Assembly: GCA_009773005.1 (NCBI GenBank)
Contig: WOUT01000020.1
Location: 1-42,637 of the forward strand
Source: Chloroflexota bacterium
Lineage (GTDB): Bacteria; Chloroflexota; Anaerolineae; Anaerolineales; Anaerolineaceae
Direction of reading: 5' to 3'
Length of the DNA stretch: 42,637 nt
Part shown: piece by piece, positions 23,022-38,634 of the stretch
Position numbering within the stretch: position 1 is the stretch's first letter
Layout of the letters: the number at the start of each line of letters is the position of its first letter
The notes under the pieces: model-generated
What the model saw: the letters and a program-made list of their open reading frames with translations, nothing else
What the model was told of the DNA's origin: nothing
Database searches by the model: none
Position numbers and translations under genes: made by a program

Positions 23022-24086
23022 ATGACAGAATTTGTTCCATTTTTACTATCCTTGCTTTCAAAACCAGGCTTATCTGGAAATGAAGAACCCATCAGCGCTC
23101 TTATTGCGGAAAAATGGCGTCCTTTGGTTGACGAGCTTTCGACCAGCCGGTTAGGCAGCCTGCACGGATTGCGGCGTGCCGATGCCAAAGACAAGAGACC
23201 CAGCCTGATGATTGCCACCCATATGGATGCGATCGGTCTGATGGTAAAGAAAATCGAACATGGATTATTATTGATCACCCATGTTGGTGGAATAGACCCC
23301 CGCATATTACCTGGACAGCTCGTGACTGTACATGGCAAGCGCGAAATCCCCGGTATTGTGCAGCTTGTGCCAAACCGGTTATTAGACGATAAATTCGTGG
23401 GAAAATCCGCCGAATTTAAAAATCTCTTCATTGATACCGGATTAAAAGAAAGCGAGCTTCTGAAGCAAGTGCAGGTTGGTGATCTTGTTTCATTCGCCCA
23501 AACCCCGTTTGAGATGAGTGGAGGTTATGTTGCCGGGCACAGCCTGGATAACCGCGCCTCGGTGACAGCCCTAACCGTCTGCCTGGAAGAGATAAAAAAC
23601 TACAACTTAAACTGGAACCTAATCGCTGTTGCCACCGTCCAGGAGGAATTGACAATGGCGGGTGCGATCACCTCTGCTTTTGATCTCCGTCCTGACCTCG
23701 CAATAACCGTTGATGTTACTTTTGCCAAGGGTCCGGGCGCAAACGATTACCGCTCTTTCCCGCTAGGGAAAGGTCCATCAATTGGATTAGGCGCCAACAT
23801 TCATCCTGCTTTGGTAAAAAAGTTCACGACCATGGCTGATGAGCTGGATATGCCATATTCAATTGAGACAATGCCGCTTAGCTCCGGCACCGATTCGATG
23901 GCTATTCAGATCTCCGCTGAAGGCATCCCCAATGAAGTGATTAGCGTTCCGATTCGATATATGCACACTTCGGTAGAAATGGTTGCCATGACAGATATTT
24001 TAAGAACCGGACGTCTATTGGCAAGATTCATCACAGAGCTTAACACAGAATCCTTAAACTTCTTGCATGAGGAAAAAAACTCATGA
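23022..24086 (+). CDS. M42-family aminopeptidase, copy 1 (divergent)
   Basis: 354 aa. M42/TET metal ligands are all visible: His in ATHMDAIGL, bridging Asp in SLDNRAS, catalytic Glu pair in TVQEELTMAG, Asp in AITVDVTF and His in RYMHTSVE. It differs from its two downstream neighbours around the catalytic glutamates (QEELTMAGA rather than QEEVG/IGxRGA) and at the N-terminus, so its specificity is likely different. M42 enzymes form dodecameric tetrahedra that trim peptides in the cytoplasm. Its stop overlaps copy 2 as ATGA. Confidence 0.92.
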   Translation: MTEFVPFLLSLLSKPGLSGNEEPISALIAEKWRPLVDELSTSRLGSLHGLRRADAKDKRPSLMIATHMDAIGLMVKKIEHGLLLITHVGGIDPRILPGQLVTVHGKREIPGIVQLVPNRLLDDKFVGKSAEFKNLFIDTGLKESELLKQVQVGDLVSFAQTPFEMSGGYVAGHSLDNRASVTALTVCLEEIKNYNLNWNLIAVATVQEELTMAGAITSAFDLRPDLAITVDVTFAKGPGANDYRSFPLGKGPSIGLGANIHPALVKKFTTMADELDMPYSIETMPLSSGTDSMAIQISAEGIPNEVISVPIRYMHTSVEMVAMTDILRTGRLLARFITELNTESLNFLHEEKNS

Positions 24087-25165
24087 CCCTGCAGCCGCCA
24101 AAACACTTTCGAATAGGTAAGACACAGCTCACCCTGTTGGAAGAATTAACCAACGCAAATGGCGTTTCCGGGAACGAAAAGGAAGTACGCGAACTTGTAC
24201 GAAAACAAGTTGCCCCTCATGCCGATGAAATCAATGTGGACGCAATGGGGAATATGCTGGTCATCAAACATGCCAAAAAAAACAACCCGCTAAAATTAAT
24301 GATGGCCGCTCACATGGATGAGGTTGGTTTAATGATTGTGGATGAAGACAGCGATGGTCTATACTCTTTTGTGGTCGTGGGAGGAATAGATGAAAGACAG
24401 CTGCTCTCCAAAACTGTTAATGTTGGCGATGATAAAATCCCCGGAATCATTGGAAGCAAGCCAATTCATCTTGCTGAATCAGATGAATTGCACTCAATAA
24501 TACCTGTTCAATCCATGCGTATTGATATTGGGCCAGCCAACAAAAGCAAAGTCAAGGTCGGTGATTACGCCGCCTTTGCAACAAAGTTCATGCATTCTGG
24601 TGATTCTCTCTTCGCCAAAGCGCTTGATGATCGATTGGGTGTTGCTGCTCTCATTGAGATCTTAAAAATTGTCCCGGATCACATCGAGTTTCTGGCCGCT
24701 TTCACTGTCCAGGAAGAGATCGGCCTTCGTGGAGCGCGAGTAGCTGCATACGGATTCAACCCAGACCTGGCAATCGTAATCGATTCAACCCCCGCTTTTG
24801 ATCTTCCTCGCCCGGACGAAAATGAAAATACTCAATACAACTGCCGCCTTGACGCCGGACCAGCCATTTATCTTTCTGATGCTGGCACTCTATCGGACCC
24901 ACGCTTGATCCGCTTTCTTGAAAAGATCGCTAAAGAGAATAAAATTCCCTACCAGTTCCGCCAGCCGGGTGGAGGTGGAACCGACGCGGGCGCCATCCAT
25001 AAAACCCGCAGCGGAATCCCGAGTGTCTCGGTTTCAGTTCCGGGTCGATATGCGCATACTCCCATCATGCTCGCGCGCGTCAAGGATTGGGAAAACACAA
25101 TTATTCTTCTTCAAAAAGCCCTCGAAACCATCAGCCCGGCAACCCTGTCTGCAGAAAGAGCTTGA
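24083..25165 (+). CDS. M42-family aminopeptidase, copy 2
   Basis: 360 aa. Ligand motifs AAHMDEVGLMI, ALDDRLGVA, TVQEEIGLRGAR, IVIDSTPAFDL and RYAHTPIM match a full dinuclear M42 active site, and GGGGTDAGAIH is the glycine-rich segment before the last ligand. It overlaps copy 1 by four bases, implying coupled translation, and precedes copy 3 by 40 nt. It is a cytoplasmic peptide-processing enzyme of TET type; substrate preference cannot be told. Confidence 0.95.
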   Translation: MTLQPPKHFRIGKTQLTLLEELTNANGVSGNEKEVRELVRKQVAPHADEINVDAMGNMLVIKHAKKNNPLKLMMAAHMDEVGLMIVDEDSDGLYSFVVVGGIDERQLLSKTVNVGDDKIPGIIGSKPIHLAESDELHSIIPVQSMRIDIGPANKSKVKVGDYAAFATKFMHSGDSLFAKALDDRLGVAALIEILKIVPDHIEFLAAFTVQEEIGLRGARVAAYGFNPDLAIVIDSTPAFDLPRPDENENTQYNCRLDAGPAIYLSDAGTLSDPRLIRFLEKIAKENKIPYQFRQPGGGGTDAGAIHKTRSGIPSVSVSVPGRYAHTPIMLARVKDWENTIILLQKALETISPATLSAERA

Positions 25166-25205
25166 TCGATCACCCAAAACCACATTCGCCTAATCTGGAG
25201 CTTAT

Positions 25206-26201
25206 ATGAAAGCACTTCTACAAAAACTCACCGAGACAGCCTCACCCTCAGGTTTCGAAGATAAAATTCGCGATTTGATCCGTTCAGAAATATCAGCGGT
25301 TACCTCTTCTGTTAAAGTTGACACTCTCGGAAACTTGATCGTCACGATCGGCGAAAAAACCGTAAAAGGGATGCGGGTGATGGTCGCTGCGCATATGGAT
25401 GAGATCGGGCTCATGGTCAGCCATGTTGAGAAAAACGGTCTCGTCAGATTCACCAATATTGGCGCGATTTTTCCCCGATATCTTTCGGGCAACCGGGCAA
25501 TATTTCTTAATGGCGTTACAGGTTGTATCAATAACGACCGCCCGGACGACCTCACCAAAATCCAATCAATAGAAAAGTACTTTATTGATATAGGAGCAAC
25601 CAGCGATAAAGACTGTCCGGTGAAAATCGGGGACGTAGCAGCCATCGAAAGAGGTTTTGTTGATCTCGGCAAGCGGGTAGTTTCAAAGTCACTTGATAAC
25701 CGTTCTTCATGCGCTGTTTTGATCGAAACCATTCAAAACATTAAAAATACACCTCATGAACTAGTATTCGTGTTCAGCGCGCAGGAAGAAGTGGGCGTGC
25801 GCGGTGCACAAACCGCTGCTTACGATATTGACGCTGACTTGGGACTTGCCATTGATGTGACCCCAACCGGCGATATCCTGGGAGTGAAAATGCAAGTCTC
25901 TTTGGGTAACGGTCCAGCCATTAAAGTTCGCGACCAGGGGATGATCTCTGATCCGCGCGTGGTGCGGTGGATCGAAGAAACTGCCCGGAAAAATAAGATT
26001 CCCTACCAGATGGAAGTGTTGGAAGTAGGATCCACAGATGCCCGCATTATGCAAGTTAGTAAAGCCGGTATGTTCACTGGCGCGGTGTCCATCCCATGTC
26101 GCTATGTTCACTCCCCCTCTGAAATGGTCGATATGGATGACTTAAACAATACGGTAAAGCTACTCTCGGCATTGTTGAGCAATCCAATCCTGTTGAAATG
26201 A
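25206..26201 (+). CDS. M42-family aminopeptidase, copy 3
   Basis: 331 aa, the most compact of the three. Motifs AAHMDEIGLMV, SLDNRSSCA, SAQEEVGVRGAQ, LAIDVTPTGDI and RYVHSPSEM give a complete active site. The start has GGAG upstream (AATCTGGAGCTTAT then ATG). Its stop overlaps the lipoprotein gene start as ATGA, so transcription and probably translation continue into a solute-binding lipoprotein. This suggests the operon imports and degrades peptides, by inference. Confidence 0.95.
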   Translation: MKALLQKLTETASPSGFEDKIRDLIRSEISAVTSSVKVDTLGNLIVTIGEKTVKGMRVMVAAHMDEIGLMVSHVEKNGLVRFTNIGAIFPRYLSGNRAIFLNGVTGCINNDRPDDLTKIQSIEKYFIDIGATSDKDCPVKIGDVAAIERGFVDLGKRVVSKSLDNRSSCAVLIETIQNIKNTPHELVFVFSAQEEVGVRGAQTAAYDIDADLGLAIDVTPTGDILGVKMQVSLGNGPAIKVRDQGMISDPRVVRWIEETARKNKIPYQMEVLEVGSTDARIMQVSKAGMFTGAVSIPCRYVHSPSEMVDMDDLNNTVKLLSALLSNPILLK

Positions 26202-31524: not shown

Positions 31525-33417
31525 ATGCAGCGCGTTATCCTTGTGTGTTCTCCAGACTCTGAGTTTATCCAGCAAATTCGTTCACATCTGGAAGAAGGTG
31601 GGCGTTTTCGCGTTTCCGGAGTCGCTAATGGTCACGATGCATTAACGTTTGCCAATCATAACTTCTTTGATGTGGCAATATTGGATGCGGAGATCAATGA
31701 TATTCCCTTTGTTCCGTTCACGCGTGATCTTGTTGCCATCCAACCCAATCTAAAAATACTCGTTTTCCCCCTTCAAAACAACCCTCATCACCCTGTTCTC
31801 ACAGGACTTGTAGCAAACGGTTTTTTAAACAAACCTTTTTTTGGTCCGGAAGTTGGCAGTGCGCTCGCTGGTCTTTTCCAGGAAATTTCCCCTGAACCCA
31901 AAATCGTGGTTGAAAGGATTGATGATCTGGCAAATCTTTGGTTGAAGCACCCTGAAATGGGCGCCAAAAGAGTTGAACAATTGATCGGCGCAACCACTGC
32001 TACGACAGGATTGCTGGTTATGAGGGGTCAGGTAATAGCAGGGTCAGGGTCAACAGATGACAGCACAATCAGCAACGTGGTCGGTTTTCTTAGCCGATAT
32101 TGGAAGGATGAAGATAATAGCGAATTAGTCCGATTTATGAAGATGGAAGGGGATACCAACGAGCATCTCATTTACGCTACTAAATTGATCAGCAATGTTG
32201 TCCTTGTCCTTTTCTATACCCCTGCAACTTCTATTCAACAGGTGCGCAGCGAGGTAAGTCAAGTCAAAAAAGAATTTCTTCAGGCTTACCCGACTACTGG
32301 AGCATTGCGCCGTGAAATTGCAGGTCAGTCAATTTTTGAACCAGAGCCTGAATATGGGGATCAACAACAAGCCCGGATTTCAGTCCCATTTTTGGATGAA
32401 AAAATTTTTCCTGAATCAGAAGCGCTCGAACCTTTTGAGGCAGCGATTGAGACTGACGACATTGCAAACGTCTTGAGTGAAAAAGAGCTACTAAATCTGG
32501 ATTCATTACTCGCAAATATGCCGCCGCCAGACCCGGAGCTCAGTGATGAAGATGTTTCTGTTCCACCATTACCAATCTCGGAACTCAACTCTCCTGCCTG
32601 GATTGGCGGTCTCGAAGAAACTCAGGAGATTGTTCCATCAGTTGTGGAAATGGACAACGGAATTGAACCCAAACCAGAAGAATCCCCGGAGATAGTTCAT
32701 CCTGTTTTAGATTCGGAAAAGGAAGTTGAGACCCTAAAAGTTGAAACAAGTATCGAACCATTCGTAATTGAAGAAGAACCCGTATCTGAAGAAGTGTCCA
32801 AAATCCAGGAGCTACCGAATTTTGATTTTATACTTCCCTGGGAAATCGAATCCTCTTCAAGTCAGGAAAATTCGATTGCTTCAGATCTTCCTTCCATAAC
32901 CGCTGAGGTTGATCAAATTAATTCAATTTCGACGCCAGTACCTTCCAATATTCAACACTACACACCAGTTGATACGTCAGTATCTTCAAGGCAGGAACCA
33001 GGGACAAAACCGTTGGGATTGAAAAGTTTTCGATTCAATTACACTTGCATTTTGATCCCCGAAAACCCAAAACAATACTTAGCGCGTGATCTCTCAGAAA
33101 GACTCGGTTTTATTCTTCCTCAGCTTCACCTGGCTGAAGGTTGGCGGTTAACCGGCATTTCCATTCGCCCCTTATACCTACTTTGGACTGTCTCTGTTTC
33201 TCTTGAAATTTGCCCATTCCAAATCATTCGTGAGATTCGCAGAAGAACAACCACCCATATTTTCTTGAATTTTCCTGAAATTGCAGAAAAAAACAAAACC
33301 AACGATTTTTGGTCTTCTGATTTTTTAGTTCTCAGCGGATTTGAGCCGCCCTCAGTCAACCTGATCTATGATTTCATCTCACAGACGAGAAAAAATCACA
33401 AACTTGTTGCAAATTAA
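31525..33417 (+). CDS. Receiver - Roadblock-like - acidic linker - IS200/Y1-transposase-like fusion protein
   Basis: 630 aa in four parts. Residues 1-120 look like a CheY receiver: VILVCSPDSEF, a possible phospho-acceptor D54 in VAILDAE, and K103 in FLNKP. Residues about 130-250 resemble a Roadblock/LC7 domain (GATTATTGLLVMRGQVIAGSG). Residues about 265-495 are a low-complexity acidic linker rich in Glu, Pro and Ser. Residues about 501-623 follow an IS200/IS605 TnpA single-strand transposase from end to end, but the HUH motif is replaced (PLYLL, about 549-553). A tyrosine, Y615, lies near the catalytic position. It is therefore probably a domesticated, cleavage-deficient nucleic-acid-binding module. 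The start has no Shine-Dalgarno. polA begins 27 nt downstream. Confidence 0.7.
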   Translation: MQRVILVCSPDSEFIQQIRSHLEEGGRFRVSGVANGHDALTFANHNFFDVAILDAEINDIPFVPFTRDLVAIQPNLKILVFPLQNNPHHPVLTGLVANGFLNKPFFGPEVGSALAGLFQEISPEPKIVVERIDDLANLWLKHPEMGAKRVEQLIGATTATTGLLVMRGQVIAGSGSTDDSTISNVVGFLSRYWKDEDNSELVRFMKMEGDTNEHLIYATKLISNVVLVLFYTPATSIQQVRSEVSQVKKEFLQAYPTTGALRREIAGQSIFEPEPEYGDQQQARISVPFLDEKIFPESEALEPFEAAIETDDIANVLSEKELLNLDSLLANMPPPDPELSDEDVSVPPLPISELNSPAWIGGLEETQEIVPSVVEMDNGIEPKPEESPEIVHPVLDSEKEVETLKVETSIEPFVIEEEPVSEEVSKIQELPNFDFILPWEIESSSSQENSIASDLPSITAEVDQINSISTPVPSNIQHYTPVDTSVSSRQEPGTKPLGLKSFRFNYTCILIPENPKQYLARDLSERLGFILPQLHLAEGWRLTGISIRPLYLLWTVSVSLEICPFQIIREIRRRTTTHIFLNFPEIAEKNKTNDFWSSDFLVLSGFEPPSVNLIYDFISQTRKNHKLVAN

Positions 33418-33444: not shown

Positions 33445-36231
33445 ATGCCTCCAATTCTCTATTTAATCGACGGACACGCACTGGCTTATCGTACCTATTT
33501 TGCATTAACATCCGGAATGGCTAACGAACGCTTGATGACAAGCAAGGGTGAACCCACAGCGGGGATATACGGATTTGCCAATGTGATTATGCGCCTTCTT
33601 GAGCAGGAGAAACCGGAGTATCTGGCAGTGGCGTTTGATACCGGAAAAACATTTCGTAACGAGCTGTTCCCCGGGTACAAAGCAACGAGAGCCAAAATGC
33701 CGGATGACCTGCGCCCCCAGATCGAGCGGATCCGTCAACTGGTGGATGCATTCCACCTTCCCAGGCTGGAACAGGAAGGTGTTGAAGCGGATGACATTCT
33801 CGGTACGATCGCTTATCAAGCGGTTGAACAGGGTTTTGGAGTAAAGATCATCACCGGGGATCGTGACCTTTTACAATTAGTCAATGACCGGATTGTTGTC
33901 AGTCTTTCAGGAACAAAAATTTCGGAAGCCAAAAACTACACAGCAGCTGATGTAAAAGCATCTCTCGGAGTCAACCCCGATCAAGTAGTCGATTATAAGG
34001 CCCTCGTTGGAGATACCTCTGACAATATTCCGGGCGTTCCCGGCGTTGGTCAAAAAACAGCAGTCAGTCTGCTGGAGCAATTCCATACCTTGGATGAGAT
34101 CTACGCACATCTTGCCGAGATTCCTGGGCGTGCATCCGTAAAACTTGCAGAAGGAAAAGAATCTGCTTATATGAGTCAAAAACTGGCACAGATCAAAACA
34201 GATGTCGGCATCCTCCTGAAACTTGATGATGCAAAAACCGACCATATTGATGTTCCCGCGGTTGAGACCTTGTTCCGTGAGCTTGAATTTCGCACTTTGA
34301 TTCCCCGTTTACACACAATAACCGCTCCGTTCGTTAAGCAAGCAACCCGCGGGCAACTTAATTTGTTTGACAGCGAGGTCAAGGAAATCGGGTTGCCATC
34401 TCAATACACTCTCGACGTTAAGATTATCGATACCGCAGAAAAACTAATTGAACTGGAGAATATTCTCAATTCCTCCACCAGAATTGCATTTGATACCGAA
34501 ACAACTTCAACCGATCCACTACGTGCTGATCTGGTCGGTATTTCACTGGCAGTAAAAGAAGGGGAAGGTTTTTACATCCCTGTTGGACACACTAAGCTTA
34601 CTGAGCAACTGCCATTGCAGCAAGTGATTGAGGCTCTCACACCGGCTCTTACCAACTCGAAAATCGAAAAAGTCGGCCATAACATAAAATACGATGCTCT
34701 GGTATTGGGCAATTACGGCTTGACCGTATCTCCCCTTTCCTTTGACACCATGATCGCTGAATGGCTGATCGATCCGTCTTCGCATAACCTAGGTCTCAAA
34801 GATATGGCAGGGTCGTATCTCAACGCAAGCATGACCCACATTGAAGAATTGATCGGTAAAGGGAAAACGCAAATCAGTATGGACCAGGTCCCGGTTGCCA
34901 CTGCCGCCCCTTATGCAGCGGCGGATGCTGAAGTAACTTTCAGGTTGGTTCCGCTTCTGGAAAAGAAAATGGCAGACCGTCAGTGCACACAGATTTTTCA
35001 GGATATTGAAATGCCCCTGGTTCCAGTCTTAATGCAGATGGAACGCACTGGTATCGCGCTTGATCGGGGCTTTTTCAAGAAGTTTAGTGACGAGATGGGT
35101 GTGCGTTTGCGCACCATCGAAGACCAGGTTTACCTGGCGGTCGGCTACCCCTTCAATCTCAATTCCACCCAGCAGCTTTCGAAGGTCCTGTTTGAAACAT
35201 TAAGACTCGAGCCGCCTGATCGAAAGAAAAAAACCGCAAGCGGTCATTTTTCAACAGCCGCGGCGGTGCTGGATGAGTTGAGCGGACAGCACCCTGTCGT
35301 TGATCTACTCCTGGAATATCGTGAACTCGCCAAACTCAAATCCACTTATCTGGATTCACTCCCCCTGCAGATCAATCCTCGAACAGGACGTGTCCATACC
35401 AGTTTCAACCAAACCGGTTCTGTCACAGGCAGGCTGGCTTCATCTGAACCTAACCTTCAAAACATACCGACCCGCACAGAGACAGGCAGGCAGGTGCGCC
35501 TGGGTTTTATCGCCTCTCCGGGGCTGGTACTGCTTTCAGTGGATTACTCACAGATCGAATTGCGCATTGTGGCACACATGTCTGGTGACGAAGCAATGTT
35601 AGATGCCTTCCGCGCCGGGCAAGATATACATGCCGCCACTGCTGCCGCCATCCTTGATATTCCACTGACAGAGGTGAACAAAGACCAACGCCGCCACGCC
35701 AAGGCGATCAACTTTGGTTTGATATATGGCATGAGCGCCTTTGGATTAAGCCGGTCGACTGACCTGACCCTTGGAGAAGCTGAAAATTTTGTCAAGGATT
35801 ATTTTGATCATTTCCCGGGTGTGAAAAAATATCTGGATAACATTCGCGTGCTCGCCGCACGGCAGGGGTTTGTTGAAACCATGCTTGGCCGCAGGCGGTA
35901 TTTTCCAAATCTGGCTAACCCGGTTAACATAGCCATGCGCAATCGGGAAGAACGCGAAGCGATCAATGCCCCAATCCAGGGAACTGCAGCGGACATCCTT
36001 AAGATCGCCATGATCCGTTTACAACCAGCACTTTATGCCAGTGGTTTAAATGCCAGAATCTTACTGCAGGTGCATGATGAACTCGTGCTAGAAGCGCCAG
36101 AAAAAGAGTTGAAACAAACTACAAAACTGGTTCAAAGAGTGATGGAGGATGCCTATCATCTTTCCATTCCCCTTCTCACAGAAGCTCGAAGTGGTGTAAA
36201 CTGGGGAAGTATGCAAGTGATCACCGATTAA
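33445..36231 (+). CDS. polA: DNA polymerase I
   Basis: 928 aa, full length with all three activities apparently intact. The 5'-3' exonuclease domain (about 1-290) has YLIDGHALAYR, GVEADDILGT, ITGDRDLLQLV and GDTSDNIPGVPGVG. The 3'-5' exonuclease has Exo I FDTETTSTD, Exo II GHNIKYDALVL and Exo III YAAADAEVTF, so proofreading residues are kept. The polymerase domain has motif A DYSQIELRIVAHMSGD, motif B with KAINFGLIYGMSAFGL, and motif C LQVHDELVLEAP. It fills gaps and processes Okazaki fragments. It lies between the receiver-transposase-like gene and the TPR gene, 27 and 23 nt away, as one operon. Confidence 0.97.
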   Translation: MPPILYLIDGHALAYRTYFALTSGMANERLMTSKGEPTAGIYGFANVIMRLLEQEKPEYLAVAFDTGKTFRNELFPGYKATRAKMPDDLRPQIERIRQLVDAFHLPRLEQEGVEADDILGTIAYQAVEQGFGVKIITGDRDLLQLVNDRIVVSLSGTKISEAKNYTAADVKASLGVNPDQVVDYKALVGDTSDNIPGVPGVGQKTAVSLLEQFHTLDEIYAHLAEIPGRASVKLAEGKESAYMSQKLAQIKTDVGILLKLDDAKTDHIDVPAVETLFRELEFRTLIPRLHTITAPFVKQATRGQLNLFDSEVKEIGLPSQYTLDVKIIDTAEKLIELENILNSSTRIAFDTETTSTDPLRADLVGISLAVKEGEGFYIPVGHTKLTEQLPLQQVIEALTPALTNSKIEKVGHNIKYDALVLGNYGLTVSPLSFDTMIAEWLIDPSSHNLGLKDMAGSYLNASMTHIEELIGKGKTQISMDQVPVATAAPYAAADAEVTFRLVPLLEKKMADRQCTQIFQDIEMPLVPVLMQMERTGIALDRGFFKKFSDEMGVRLRTIEDQVYLAVGYPFNLNSTQQLSKVLFETLRLEPPDRKKKTASGHFSTAAAVLDELSGQHPVVDLLLEYRELAKLKSTYLDSLPLQINPRTGRVHTSFNQTGSVTGRLASSEPNLQNIPTRTETGRQVRLGFIASPGLVLLSVDYSQIELRIVAHMSGDEAMLDAFRAGQDIHAATAAAILDIPLTEVNKDQRRHAKAINFGLIYGMSAFGLSRSTDLTLGEAENFVKDYFDHFPGVKKYLDNIRVLAARQGFVETMLGRRRYFPNLANPVNIAMRNREEREAINAPIQGTAADILKIAMIRLQPALYASGLNARILLQVHDELVLEAPEKELKQTTKLVQRVMEDAYHLSIPLLTEARSGVNWGSMQVITD

Positions 36232-36254: not shown

Positions 36255-38585
36255 ATGAGCGCTGAATCTGCACAATTCCAAACACTGATGAGCCAGGGGC
36301 ATGCTTCCGCATGGGATCAAGATTGGGAAAAAGCTGTCGATGCATATCGTCTGGCTTTGCAGGAATCTCCGGATCATCCGATGGCGCTCGCCAGCCTTGG
36401 ACTGGCACATTATCAGCTAAGACAGTTCGATGAAGCCCTCCGTCTTTACCAGCGCTGTTCTGCCATCACCCCTGACGATCCGATGCCCTTCGAAAAAATT
36501 GCCAGGATTTACGAAAGGGTTGGCTTGCTGCATGAAGCTGTTCAATCCTTCATGCAAGCAGGTGAAATGCAGCTAAAAGCACACGATGTTGATCGGGCAA
36601 TAGCCAATTTCAAAGACGCAATTCGGCTGGAGCCAAAAAACCAGACCGTGCACACCCGATTAGCAATGATCTACGATAAACTCGGAAAAATTGAAGATTC
36701 TATCGCCGAATATCTGATTACCGCTGCAATCATGCAATTCTTAGGTGATAATGCCAAAGCCTTGCAAGTCGTTCAATATGCATTGCAAATGTCTCCGGAT
36801 CATCCAGAAACCAAAAACTCACTCACTATGCTCAAGAGTGGTCATCAATTACCAATCCCGGAACCACAAAAAGGTGGAACTGGGCCTGTGCGCATGGCAC
36901 AAGTGAGGCAAATGGAATCACCGGATATTAAGAATGAACCAACTCCAAGATACGATCCATTAACCGAAACTCGCCTCGCAGCCCTAAAGCAAATGGCAAG
37001 CCTTCTGTTTGATCAATCTGATGAGAGCAAATCTAATGGACACGTCAGCCGTCGCGGCATCCACGCACTTACTCGCGGTACAGGTGGACTGTCGCCTGAA
37101 CAGGCAGAACGAACGCGCATCCAATTACATCTCAGCCAAACCATCGATCTGCAAACCGCCGGGCAGGATGAACAAGGTGCCATAGAACTTGAACGCGCTA
37201 TTGACCTGGGTCTGAACCAATCGGCATCCTATTATGTATTAGGTTTATTAATTCGACATCGAGCTCCACAGAAAGCCCTAAAGAACCTCCAAAAATCGGT
37301 AAAAAATCCCGATTATGCTCTCGCCTCCTATTTGATCATGGCAGAAATCTACGAAAAATCTGAACAATATAAGGAAGCCAGCGCAAATTATCTTCAAGCG
37401 TTAAGGCTGGCAGACGCGCAAACGGTATCACCCGAAGAAGCAGATGAACTCATGCAGCTCTATGAGCCAATTTTTGAATCACAGCTACGGGTCCATGAAG
37501 AGAAAGATCTTCGTAATCTCTGTACAGTCATCAACGGGCAATTGATACGCTCTGACTGGCGTGAGTATCTAAAAGAAGCCCGCAACCAGTTGCCACTTCA
37601 GTCAGAAGGAAGTCCACCCCTGCCACTTGCAGAAATGCTGCTGGAAACCACCAGCAGCCATGTAGTTGAGGCTTTGGTTGTTGTGAAACAATTGGCTTCA
37701 GAAGGCAAACTACGTACAGCAATGGAAGAAGCATTCCATGCCCTGATGTACGCTCCCACGTATCTACCATTGCACATCCAAATCGGCGAATTGTTGATCA
37801 CAGAAGGTCGGATTCTGGAAGCCACCGAAAAGTTCATGGTTGTTTCAAATCTGTACATTGTCCGGGGTGAGACAGCCCAGGCAATCCGGCTGCTTAACCG
37901 CGTCACAAAACTTGCCCCCATGGATCTGTCTGTGAGAAGTATGTTGATTGACCTGTTAAAGTCCATTGGGCGGGTCGATGACGCGATCCAACAATATGTG
38001 GATTTAGCAAACGTTTACTATCTTCTTGCAGAATTGGATATGGCGAGACAGACCTATCAGGCGGCTCTGGCTCTTTCGCAGCAGACCAGTTCAACGCGCG
38101 CATGGGCTGTGCAGGTGCTTAATAAACTGGCTGATATTGAATTGCAAAGCCTGGATTGGAAACAGGCTATCAAATTCTTTGAGCAGCTTCGCAGTTTGGA
38201 ACCTCTTGAACCATCTCCGCGTGCTACTCTGATCGATCTGTATCTGCGAATCGGTTTACCTTCAGCAGCGTTTAATGAATTGGATGCCTATCTCAAATTG
38301 ATCAACTCACCAGAACAATTGTCTAAAGCCTCCCGTTTCCTGGATGATTTACTTGCTGAGAGGCCTGATAATATTGAGATCCAGAAAAGATTGGTAACTT
38401 TTTATGCATCACAAAATCAGGTTCCAGTGATCATCGAAAAACTGGATGCACTAACCGAGAAATGTTTGGGACAGGAAAACATTGAAGGCGCTCTTGCAAC
38501 TCTGCATCACCTTATATCTATAAACCCACCCAACCTGAAAGAGTATTTAAAACTCTATGACGATTTGATGAACCAGAAAAAATAA
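36255..38585 (+). CDS. Large tetratricopeptide-repeat protein
   Basis: 776 aa, no signal peptide or membrane helix. TPR units are clear in the N-terminal third (AVDAYRLALQESPDHPMALASLGLAHYQL, then EALRLYQRCSAITPDDPMPFEKIARIYERVG, and further units to about residue 190). A charged linker (about 200-285) is followed by more TPR-like helices to the end. Such proteins act as scaffolds; no catalytic motif is visible. GAGAGAG precedes the ATG. It is the third gene of the receiver-transposase-like/polA operon and ends at a strong terminator. Confidence 0.9.
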   Translation: MSAESAQFQTLMSQGHASAWDQDWEKAVDAYRLALQESPDHPMALASLGLAHYQLRQFDEALRLYQRCSAITPDDPMPFEKIARIYERVGLLHEAVQSFMQAGEMQLKAHDVDRAIANFKDAIRLEPKNQTVHTRLAMIYDKLGKIEDSIAEYLITAAIMQFLGDNAKALQVVQYALQMSPDHPETKNSLTMLKSGHQLPIPEPQKGGTGPVRMAQVRQMESPDIKNEPTPRYDPLTETRLAALKQMASLLFDQSDESKSNGHVSRRGIHALTRGTGGLSPEQAERTRIQLHLSQTIDLQTAGQDEQGAIELERAIDLGLNQSASYYVLGLLIRHRAPQKALKNLQKSVKNPDYALASYLIMAEIYEKSEQYKEASANYLQALRLADAQTVSPEEADELMQLYEPIFESQLRVHEEKDLRNLCTVINGQLIRSDWREYLKEARNQLPLQSEGSPPLPLAEMLLETTSSHVVEALVVVKQLASEGKLRTAMEEAFHALMYAPTYLPLHIQIGELLITEGRILEATEKFMVVSNLYIVRGETAQAIRLLNRVTKLAPMDLSVRSMLIDLLKSIGRVDDAIQQYVDLANVYYLLAELDMARQTYQAALALSQQTSSTRAWAVQVLNKLADIELQSLDWKQAIKFFEQLRSLEPLEPSPRATLIDLYLRIGLPSAAFNELDAYLKLINSPEQLSKASRFLDDLLAERPDNIEIQKRLVTFYASQNQVPVIIEKLDALTEKCLGQENIEGALATLHHLISINPPNLKEYLKLYDDLMNQKK

Positions 38586-38602: not shown

Positions 38603-38634
38603 AAACAGCCCCGAAAACAATTTCAGGGCTGTTT
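38603..38634. terminator. Bidirectional terminator
   Basis: Stem AAACAGCCC/GGGCTGTTT (38603-38611 with 38626-38634) extended by GAAA/TTTC across a C-A mismatch, loop ACAA. On the minus strand it runs into eight T residues; on the plus strand TTTGCTGGGTTTT follows. It serves the convergent TPR and secreted-protein genes. Confidence 0.9.

Follow-up and report, generated by a model that had tools for sequence, protein, structure and literature searches.

How did the fold of a DNA transposase come to be part of a signalling protein, and what might such a protein do beside the gene for DNA polymerase I (Pol I)? The question is posed by a gene, here called T, on contig WOUT01000020.1 of a Chloroflexota bacterium of the family Anaerolineaceae (assembly GCA_009773005.1), the whole 42,637 nt of which is referred to below as the window. 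T is a single open reading frame (ORF) from ATG to TAA (31525-33417, + strand; 630 aa), in which a first-pass annotation had seen a receiver, a Roadblock-like domain and a TnpA-type domain. All three domains were recovered, the receiver through its structural model, the Roadblock domain through a family profile and the TnpA domain through Pfam and its predicted fold. We see roughly an even chance that T is a non-catalytic signalling adaptor in which the TnpA fold serves dimerisation or docking, most likely adjusting Pol I, with the Pol I step taken from gene order alone. The parts of T are as follows (handles used below: G, genome; C, contig; L, locus; f, family).

31525..33417, + strand: gene T, 630 aa, receiver, Roadblock, acidic linker and dead TnpA (Y1) domain (ORF; architecture common to relatives)
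31525..31884, + strand: CheY-like receiver, residues 1-120 (Response_reg at 28.4 bits, under the cut-off; model with Z 18.9; residue census of 36)
31909..32298, + strand: Roadblock/LC7-type domain, about residues 129-258 (MglB with the family profile, Robl_LC7 in 6 of 50, weak Rag-GTPase alignments, alignment)
32299..33015, + strand: acidic linker, probably disordered, about residues 259-497 (composition; predicted local distance difference test, pLDDT, about 45 and 41 over the first 14 residues, the remainder lying outside the model)
32497..32538, + strand: linker motif 1, LDSLLANMPPPDPE, residues 325-338 (MPPPDPE-like pattern in relatives)
32824..32850, + strand: linker motif 2, DFILPWEIE, residues 434-442 (LPWE-like pattern in relatives)
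33016..33414, + strand: domain derived from IS200/IS605 TnpA, residues 498-630, with Y551, L553, F617 and T621 in place of the catalytic residues (PF01797, structure, profile, census)

Single sequences give modest signals for the C-terminal domain (C-domain): Pfam Y1_Tnp (PF01797) matches residues 502-604 at 25.7 bits against a curated cut-off of 23, the NCBIfam IS200 transposase model matches only below its cut-off (21 versus 55 bits), and a single-sequence phmmer search of the PDB finds TnpAs at a non-significant E of 0.12. A profile of 39 fused C-domains, built without canonical TnpA, reaches the PDB TnpA structures at E 1.3e-22. The Y1/HUH fold that had been put forward for checking by structure prediction was recovered in an AlphaFold2 model of high confidence (pLDDT 93.8, predicted template modelling score, pTM, 0.85; the underlying alignment included standalone TnpAs), which aligns with TnpA chains at Z 14.3-16.1, most of them at a root-mean-square deviation of about 1.8, followed by the REP transposase 4er8 (Z 8.5) and the next other chain (7.8). 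Foldseek gave E values down to 7.3e-9, and in both structural comparisons the top matches are TnpAs, namely those of Sulfolobus, ISDra2 and IS608. The phmmer value of 0.12 is what might be said for a chance similarity or a decaying pseudogene, an explanation that we regard as refuted given the profile E of 1.3e-22, the Z of 16, a ratio of nonsynonymous to synonymous substitution rates (dN/dS) of 0.13 and long open frames across a bacterial class.

The fold has been kept without its chemistry. We took a census of 175 distinct C-domains, 136 of them 'fused' (starting at least 150 residues into the frame) and 39 'standalone'. Both HuH histidines are present in 1 of the 136 fused domains compared with 26 of the 39 standalone ones, and HuH together with the tyrosine in none compared with 25. 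In the window, Y551, L553, F617 and T621 occupy the positions of the TnpA H, H, Y and Q, the HuH region reading Y551-L552-L553; the first-pass annotation was thus right that both histidines are gone, while the tyrosine that it placed near the catalytic position, Y615, sits two residues off a catalytic column that is F617. Among the 136 fused domains that column is F in 75 and Y in 58, and the glutamine at +4 (T621 in the window) is Q in 5. Judged by these residues, the nuclease of the C-domain is dead. T also lacks the HuH with Y---NP tyrosine context of the TnpA-REP (RAYT) group, and as a 630-aa fusion it departs from the short, core-only TnpA format of about 150 aa. A retooled active-site pocket was considered and rejected: the former catalytic columns rank 26, 61, 9 and 53 of 120 in conservation across 42 non-redundant domains of the window's own order, so only the aromatic residue at the tyrosine column stands out. 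Thirteen standalone rows are without HuH; three of them (L044, L046, L123) are truncated or split T genes, five (L082, L245, L246, L250, L254) cluster with the fused domains on the tree described below, and the other five cluster with TnpAs. The five in the second group, including L082:4615-5199, are proteins of 148-194 aa from family f12 genomes that consist of the dead TnpA domain only, without receiver or Roadblock.

The surface of the domain has changed as well. Averaged over 26 HuH-bearing TnpAs, the net charge of the domain core is +6.0; the average falls to +1.4 for 118 own-order fused domains and to -3.8 for 18 from other families of the class, and the window itself has a charge of 0. 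Basic TnpA columns are retained in the own order at 513 (R in 86%, E in the window) and 572 (R572; R in 91%) and mostly lost at window positions 515, 577, 598 and 616, while arginines (R in 75-91%) have been gained in the own order at 541, 548, 569, 622 and 624. These shifts speak against nucleic-acid binding having simply been retained, though a new binding face is possible. The suggestion that T binds or senses single-stranded DNA (ssDNA) or RNA hairpins is accordingly weakened by the fallen charge and the lost columns, and keeps in its favour the conserved arginines gained in the own order. In its fuller form, the dead domain would bind such hairpins without cutting and guide or restrain Pol I or the operon transcript there. 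TnpAs do bind subterminal hairpins (PMC6006769; this and the other papers cited are drawn on through excerpts), and the TnpA fold, the linkage to polA, the two retained basic columns and the gained arginines would all suit this explanation; the charge values and the four lost columns tell against it, as does the lack of any Rfam family match in the operon, and we consider it possible but rather unlikely.

What the domain is attached to bears on its role. Response_reg in Pfam matches residues 5-106 at 28.4 bits, slightly below its cut-off of 30.2, and a model of residues 1-272 (pLDDT 85.1, pTM 0.50) shows a receiver and a second domain, the receiver aligning with known structures at Z up to 18.9. 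Response regulator receivers carry an acidic pair after strand 1 and a threonine or serine after strand 4. The window receiver retains D54 and K103-P104, has S9-P10 in place of the acidic pair (with D11 next) and has P82 at the Thr/Ser column. Across 36 fused sequences (35 from the own order plus L083), the phospho-acceptor D54 is kept in all, column 9 is D or E in 3, column 82 is Ser in 4 and Thr in none, and the conserved lysine is K in 24; among 16 further fused proteins of other families the phospho-acceptor column is Asp in only 9. The acidic pair has been lost from the receiver in Anaerolineales. The loss of this pair, together with the loss of charge in the TnpA domain, favours a non-catalytic adaptor over a sensor of ssDNA or RNA hairpins.

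The second domain is less readily seen in the window protein, in which single-sequence Pfam did not call a Roadblock and the Roadblock segment gave no Pfam match. A profile built from 50 such regions finds MglB at E 7.8e-6, its best eight matches all being MglB, and 6 of the 50 family members match Robl_LC7 themselves (best 3.1e-8). R203 and R241 are invariant in 36 sequences. Rag GTPases, of which the C-terminal half is Roadblock-like, lead the Foldseek results for the N-terminal model and are aligned over both domains with TM-scores of only about 0.3, so the Roadblock assignment rests on the family profile; the structural comparison that gave the receiver Z scores covered residues 1-123 only. 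Arf-family matches occur in 26 of 26 genomes, but also in 12 of 14 control genomes, and are therefore not specific to T. In four genomes of the window's genus whose T is without Roadblock (G004, G005, G008, G010), an MglA-like gene precedes T on the same strand at a distance of about 4-6 kb, and in L040 that gene adjoins a DUF4388 (PATAN) gene. A link to an MglA operon was considered and not adopted: the intervening genes look unrelated, and the fifth genome of this kind (G011) has no such match on that contig.

Several observations suggest how this protein was assembled. The dead TnpA domain is under purifying selection, with a median dN/dS of 0.13 and a maximum of 0.45 over 1901 pairs (Nei-Gojobori; many pairs at high dS), and it is the most conserved part of T, with a mean pairwise identity of 0.40 compared with 0.34 for the Roadblock and 0.27 for the receiver (36 sequences each). 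A tree built from 93 rows and 137 columns leaves many forks unresolved but has one branch, with a Shimodaira-Hasegawa-like approximate likelihood ratio (SH-aLRT) of 98, that places 30 standalone rows of TnpA type on one side and, on the other, all 55 fused rows together with 8 standalone ones allied to them; a single domestication of TnpA therefore fits the tree, short of proof. Receiver-Roadblock proteins without a detected TnpA domain occur in families f24, f55, f59 and f64; of the 14 such proteins 12 were aligned, all of which retain the Lys and the Asp that follows strand 1, and 11 of which retain the phospho-acceptor Asp. From these intact receivers, set against the degenerate ones of the fused proteins, we infer that a receiver-Roadblock protein probably came first and acquired the TnpA domain, its receiver degenerating afterwards. 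All six f49 members (369-445 aa) have exactly one HuH histidine left; together with the TnpA-less relatives they may be a record of the steps of domestication.

The window's own genome also carries, on contig C59 (194-559; L081:152-589), a standalone TnpA of 145 aa with HVH and YI--Q intact, which is likely to be an active IS200-type transposase. Its presence, and the fact that TnpA acts as a dimer (PMC6006769), would suit a dominant-negative immunity in which resident IS200/IS605 elements are blocked when the dead domain pairs with their active TnpA. The long divergence of the domain from true TnpAs argues against this, as do the short standalone rows found alike in genomes of the order with and without T (by eye, uncalibrated), and we consider it highly improbable.

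An acidic linker had been described as joining the domains, and its composition bears this out: residues 259-498 (240 aa) hold 53 D+E versus 11 K+R, and linkers of the own order are enriched in P, E and A. Two short patterns recur within it. Among 36 non-redundant linkers an MPPPDPE-like pattern occurs in 16, where 500 shuffles gave 1.6 on average and never more than 5; an LPWE-like pattern occurs in 11, where the shuffles averaged 0.29 and never exceeded 2. These excesses are suggestive, and both patterns look like docking sites. In the other families except f49 the long linker lies mostly between receiver and Roadblock, the Roadblock-TnpA spacing having a median of 30.5 aa in 18 other-family proteins compared with 154 in 110 of the own order.

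The fusion is widespread around the window and conserved among relatives. T matches were found in 51 of 61 genomes (the window's and 60 relatives), with the C-domain in an open frame in 39 of the 40 loci fetched (the exception being L058), and T-like rows in 92 of 181 genomes of a wider sample of the order. Proteins with Roadblock and TnpA domains occur in further families of the class Anaerolineae (f34, f48, f49, f60, f62, f69), and the conservation of the fusion, on which the first-pass annotation had made its reading depend, thus extends across several families beyond the window's order. In a draw of 400 genomes from the phylum, with up to six candidates scored per genome so that a fused gene could be missed, the rows listed from outside the class correspond to the TnpA half, and two of them, which read through stops, begin at profile positions 88-90. 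With one exception these rows sit in frames no longer than 290 aa; the exception, G507, is in a 580-aa frame with an internal stop. A pattern scan of 84,980 species, which would miss divergent forms, gave 181 relatives, and the 80 listed of these all have Chloroflexota-type titles. We suspect that one 'Herpetosiphon' and one 'Ca. Aquidulcis' metagenome-assembled genome among the matches are misnamed, because the polA neighbours of both score like Anaerolineales polA. In two loci (L031:7032-9849 and L044:4873-6442) T is present as two overlapping frames, one for the receiver-Roadblock and one for the TnpA part, which appears to be either a frameshift or true gene fission.

T had been placed first in an operon with polA, and this proved correct, with a third gene following.

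33445..36231, + strand: polA, DNA polymerase I, 928 aa (ORF; Pfam and NCBIfam; linkage in relatives)
36255..38585, + strand: tetratricopeptide repeat (TPR) protein, 776 aa, third gene of the operon (Pfam TPR families; T-polA-TPR order in relatives)
38603..38634, strand not assigned: 14-pair stem resembling a terminator, downstream of the TPR gene (from a consensus scan alone, which lists it on the minus strand)

The stop codon of T and the start of polA are 27 nt apart, and the polA product has 5'-3' exonuclease, 3'-5' exonuclease and polymerase domains and scores above the NCBIfam DNA polymerase I cut-offs. The placement of polA is listed for 79 of the 92 genomes of the order with a T-like row: it lies at most 1.5 kb downstream of T on the same strand in 70, 2.7-3.6 kb away in 4 and on another contig in 5. 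Among the named loci, a set that overlaps the former in species, with members related by descent in both, polA is downstream on the same strand within 1.4 kb in 70 of 80, and one of the other ten has 36 nt of contig left. T, polA and the TPR gene also follow one another in Longilinea arvoryzae KOME-1 (L124). Six loci of other families (L086, L087, L088, L094, L097, L225) have polA directly after T, opposite-strand genes lie between the two in L096 (one) and L224 (two ORFs), and L095 has no polA match before its contig end. This conserved position speaks against mobility of T.

An adjusting role at Pol I has to be weighed against the explanation that T does its signalling outside DNA metabolism and stands beside polA only through inherited gene order or because the two genes are expressed together. 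For the latter it counts that some genomes keep polA without T, that a TPR gene still stands behind polA without T in L202, L205, L208 (by Pfam), L201 and L203 (by eye), and that other families have several T genes at a distance from polA; the persistence of the T-polA pair across families, while the genes upstream of T change, counts against it, and on balance we hold it to be unlikely.

The adaptor reading itself would run as follows. An IS200/IS605 TnpA would have been captured by an ancestor within the Anaerolineae and joined to a receiver-Roadblock protein; its nuclease residues were lost, and purifying selection has preserved the fold since. The TnpA fold, dimeric in transposases, may now act as a dimerisation or docking module, the Roadblock domain may dimerise or bind an MglA-type GTPase, the degenerate receiver could be an input surface and the disordered linker could carry docking motifs. 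Upon a signal, T would most likely tune how much Pol I, or a co-made partner, is present, where it is placed or how active it is; action on Pol I is the boldest step here, and gene order is what suggests it. We find doubtful the fuller proposal of a dedicated Pol I signalling regulator across the Anaerolineae, in which a catalysis-stripped ssDNA transposase, with its dimeric TnpA fold on a motif-bearing disordered tether, would relay input from the receiver and the GTPase-type Roadblock to Pol I where DNA is single-stranded or folded into hairpins.

Several observations weigh against the adaptor reading. T-like rows are missing from 89 of the 181 genomes of the order, and ten relatives without a T match keep polA, so T is dispensable; in eight of these ten another gene precedes polA, the other two (L201, L210) having at most 230 nt upstream. 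T lies away from polA in L083, L084, L091-L093, L222, L223, L226 and L234. No Roadblock was matched in eight fused proteins, of which six belong to the window's genus with the Roadblock-less part in the same frame as the TnpA domain, one is split (L031) and one is cut by its contig end (L177). The dimerisation of the T domain would be carried over from TnpA by analogy. The linker patterns were chosen and tested on the same related sequences; motif 1 is missing from 20 of the 36 linkers and motif 2 from 25, L059, one of the 16 motif-1 matches, looks like chance, and in 18 fused proteins of other families motif 1 was found only in L087 and L095 and motif 2 in none. Finally, a single histidine also occurs in 12 of the 118 domains of the own order, so the lone histidine of f49 is weak support for an intermediate state.

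That transposon proteins can be exapted is known. TldR, for example, derives from TnpB by loss of nuclease activity, is RNA-guided and is not known to have a receiver or Roadblock. These TnpB-like RNA-guided transcription factors are transposon-type proteins reused for regulation (PMC13418256), as is proposed for T. Among the known systems closest to T is TnpA of IS200/IS605 (IS608, ISDra2; PF01797), which the C-domain of T matches in fold and sequence profile and from which T differs by the absence of HuH, catalytic Tyr and +4 Gln, by its lower net charge, by fusion to signalling domains, by its place next to polA and by purifying selection. MglB and other Roadblock/LC7 proteins share one module with T, in which it is part of a larger protein. 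The excerpted text of the TnpA-Y1 classification survey, reportedly that of Quentin et al. in 2018, gives HuH and Y as common to all members of the TnpA-Y1 classes and states that a few unexpectedly long proteins were discarded (PMC6006769), so the T family would probably have been dropped there. The TnpA-REP/RAYT proteins are, like T, TnpA relatives outside typical insertion sequences, but keep HuH and Tyr with Y---NP, and several subclasses lie by REP sequences (PMC6006769); their structural match to the C-domain is the weaker one (4er8, Z 8.5, versus 14-16 for TnpA).

In a survey of prokaryotic Ras-like GTPases, MglA is connected both with response regulators and with Roadblock proteins, and RomR and other MglA-linked response regulators are receiver-based and tied to small GTPases, the excerpt mentioning no Roadblock or TnpA domain in them, unlike T (PMC4316618). 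A review of prokaryotic exaptation derives Cas9 and Cas12 from the IS200/IS605 transposon family, with no TnpA of the T kind mentioned in the excerpt (PMC8987985), and in ISDra2 the activity of TnpA is tied to ssDNA arising in repair, which has no direct bearing on T (PMC2806898). In open-licence PMC papers we found no description of the T architecture, no account of an IS200/IS605 TnpA as a signalling module and none of a signalling gene kept beside polA across much of a bacterial class. New here are the two short linker motifs and the TnpA-less relatives with intact receivers. T suggests that a transposase has been reused as a part of the cell and, if it acts on Pol I, signalling control of a housekeeping polymerase becomes directly testable.

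Some neighbouring features complete the picture of the locus. Upstream of T lies a divergent gene for a UDP-sugar dehydrogenase, the called start of which (31516) leaves only 8 nt before T; the gap may be larger, the conserved domain starting about 40 residues in. Promoter-like sites between 31300 and 38900 (10 versus 9.6 in shuffles) and terminator-like stems overall (10 versus 7.7) showed no excess, and an Rfam scan of the window found three tRNA genes only, at its start (155-506, - strand). Elsewhere, at L083:3597-4349, T of family f48 adjoins, instead of polA, a gene with DZR_2 and phosphoribosyltransferase domains, which we take to be ComF-like; in two f49 loci (L223:3063-5585 and L234:5653-7866) the gene before T encodes an endonuclease/exonuclease/phosphatase domain; and in a genome without T a 221-aa ORF with no Pfam family lies directly upstream of polA (L206:771-1436), which by eye may be a Roadblock remnant. 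Own-genus T genes without Roadblock were seen in L034, L035, L038, L040 and L041. Within the window, three consecutive homologous genes at 23022-26201 (+ strand) form one BLAST cluster.

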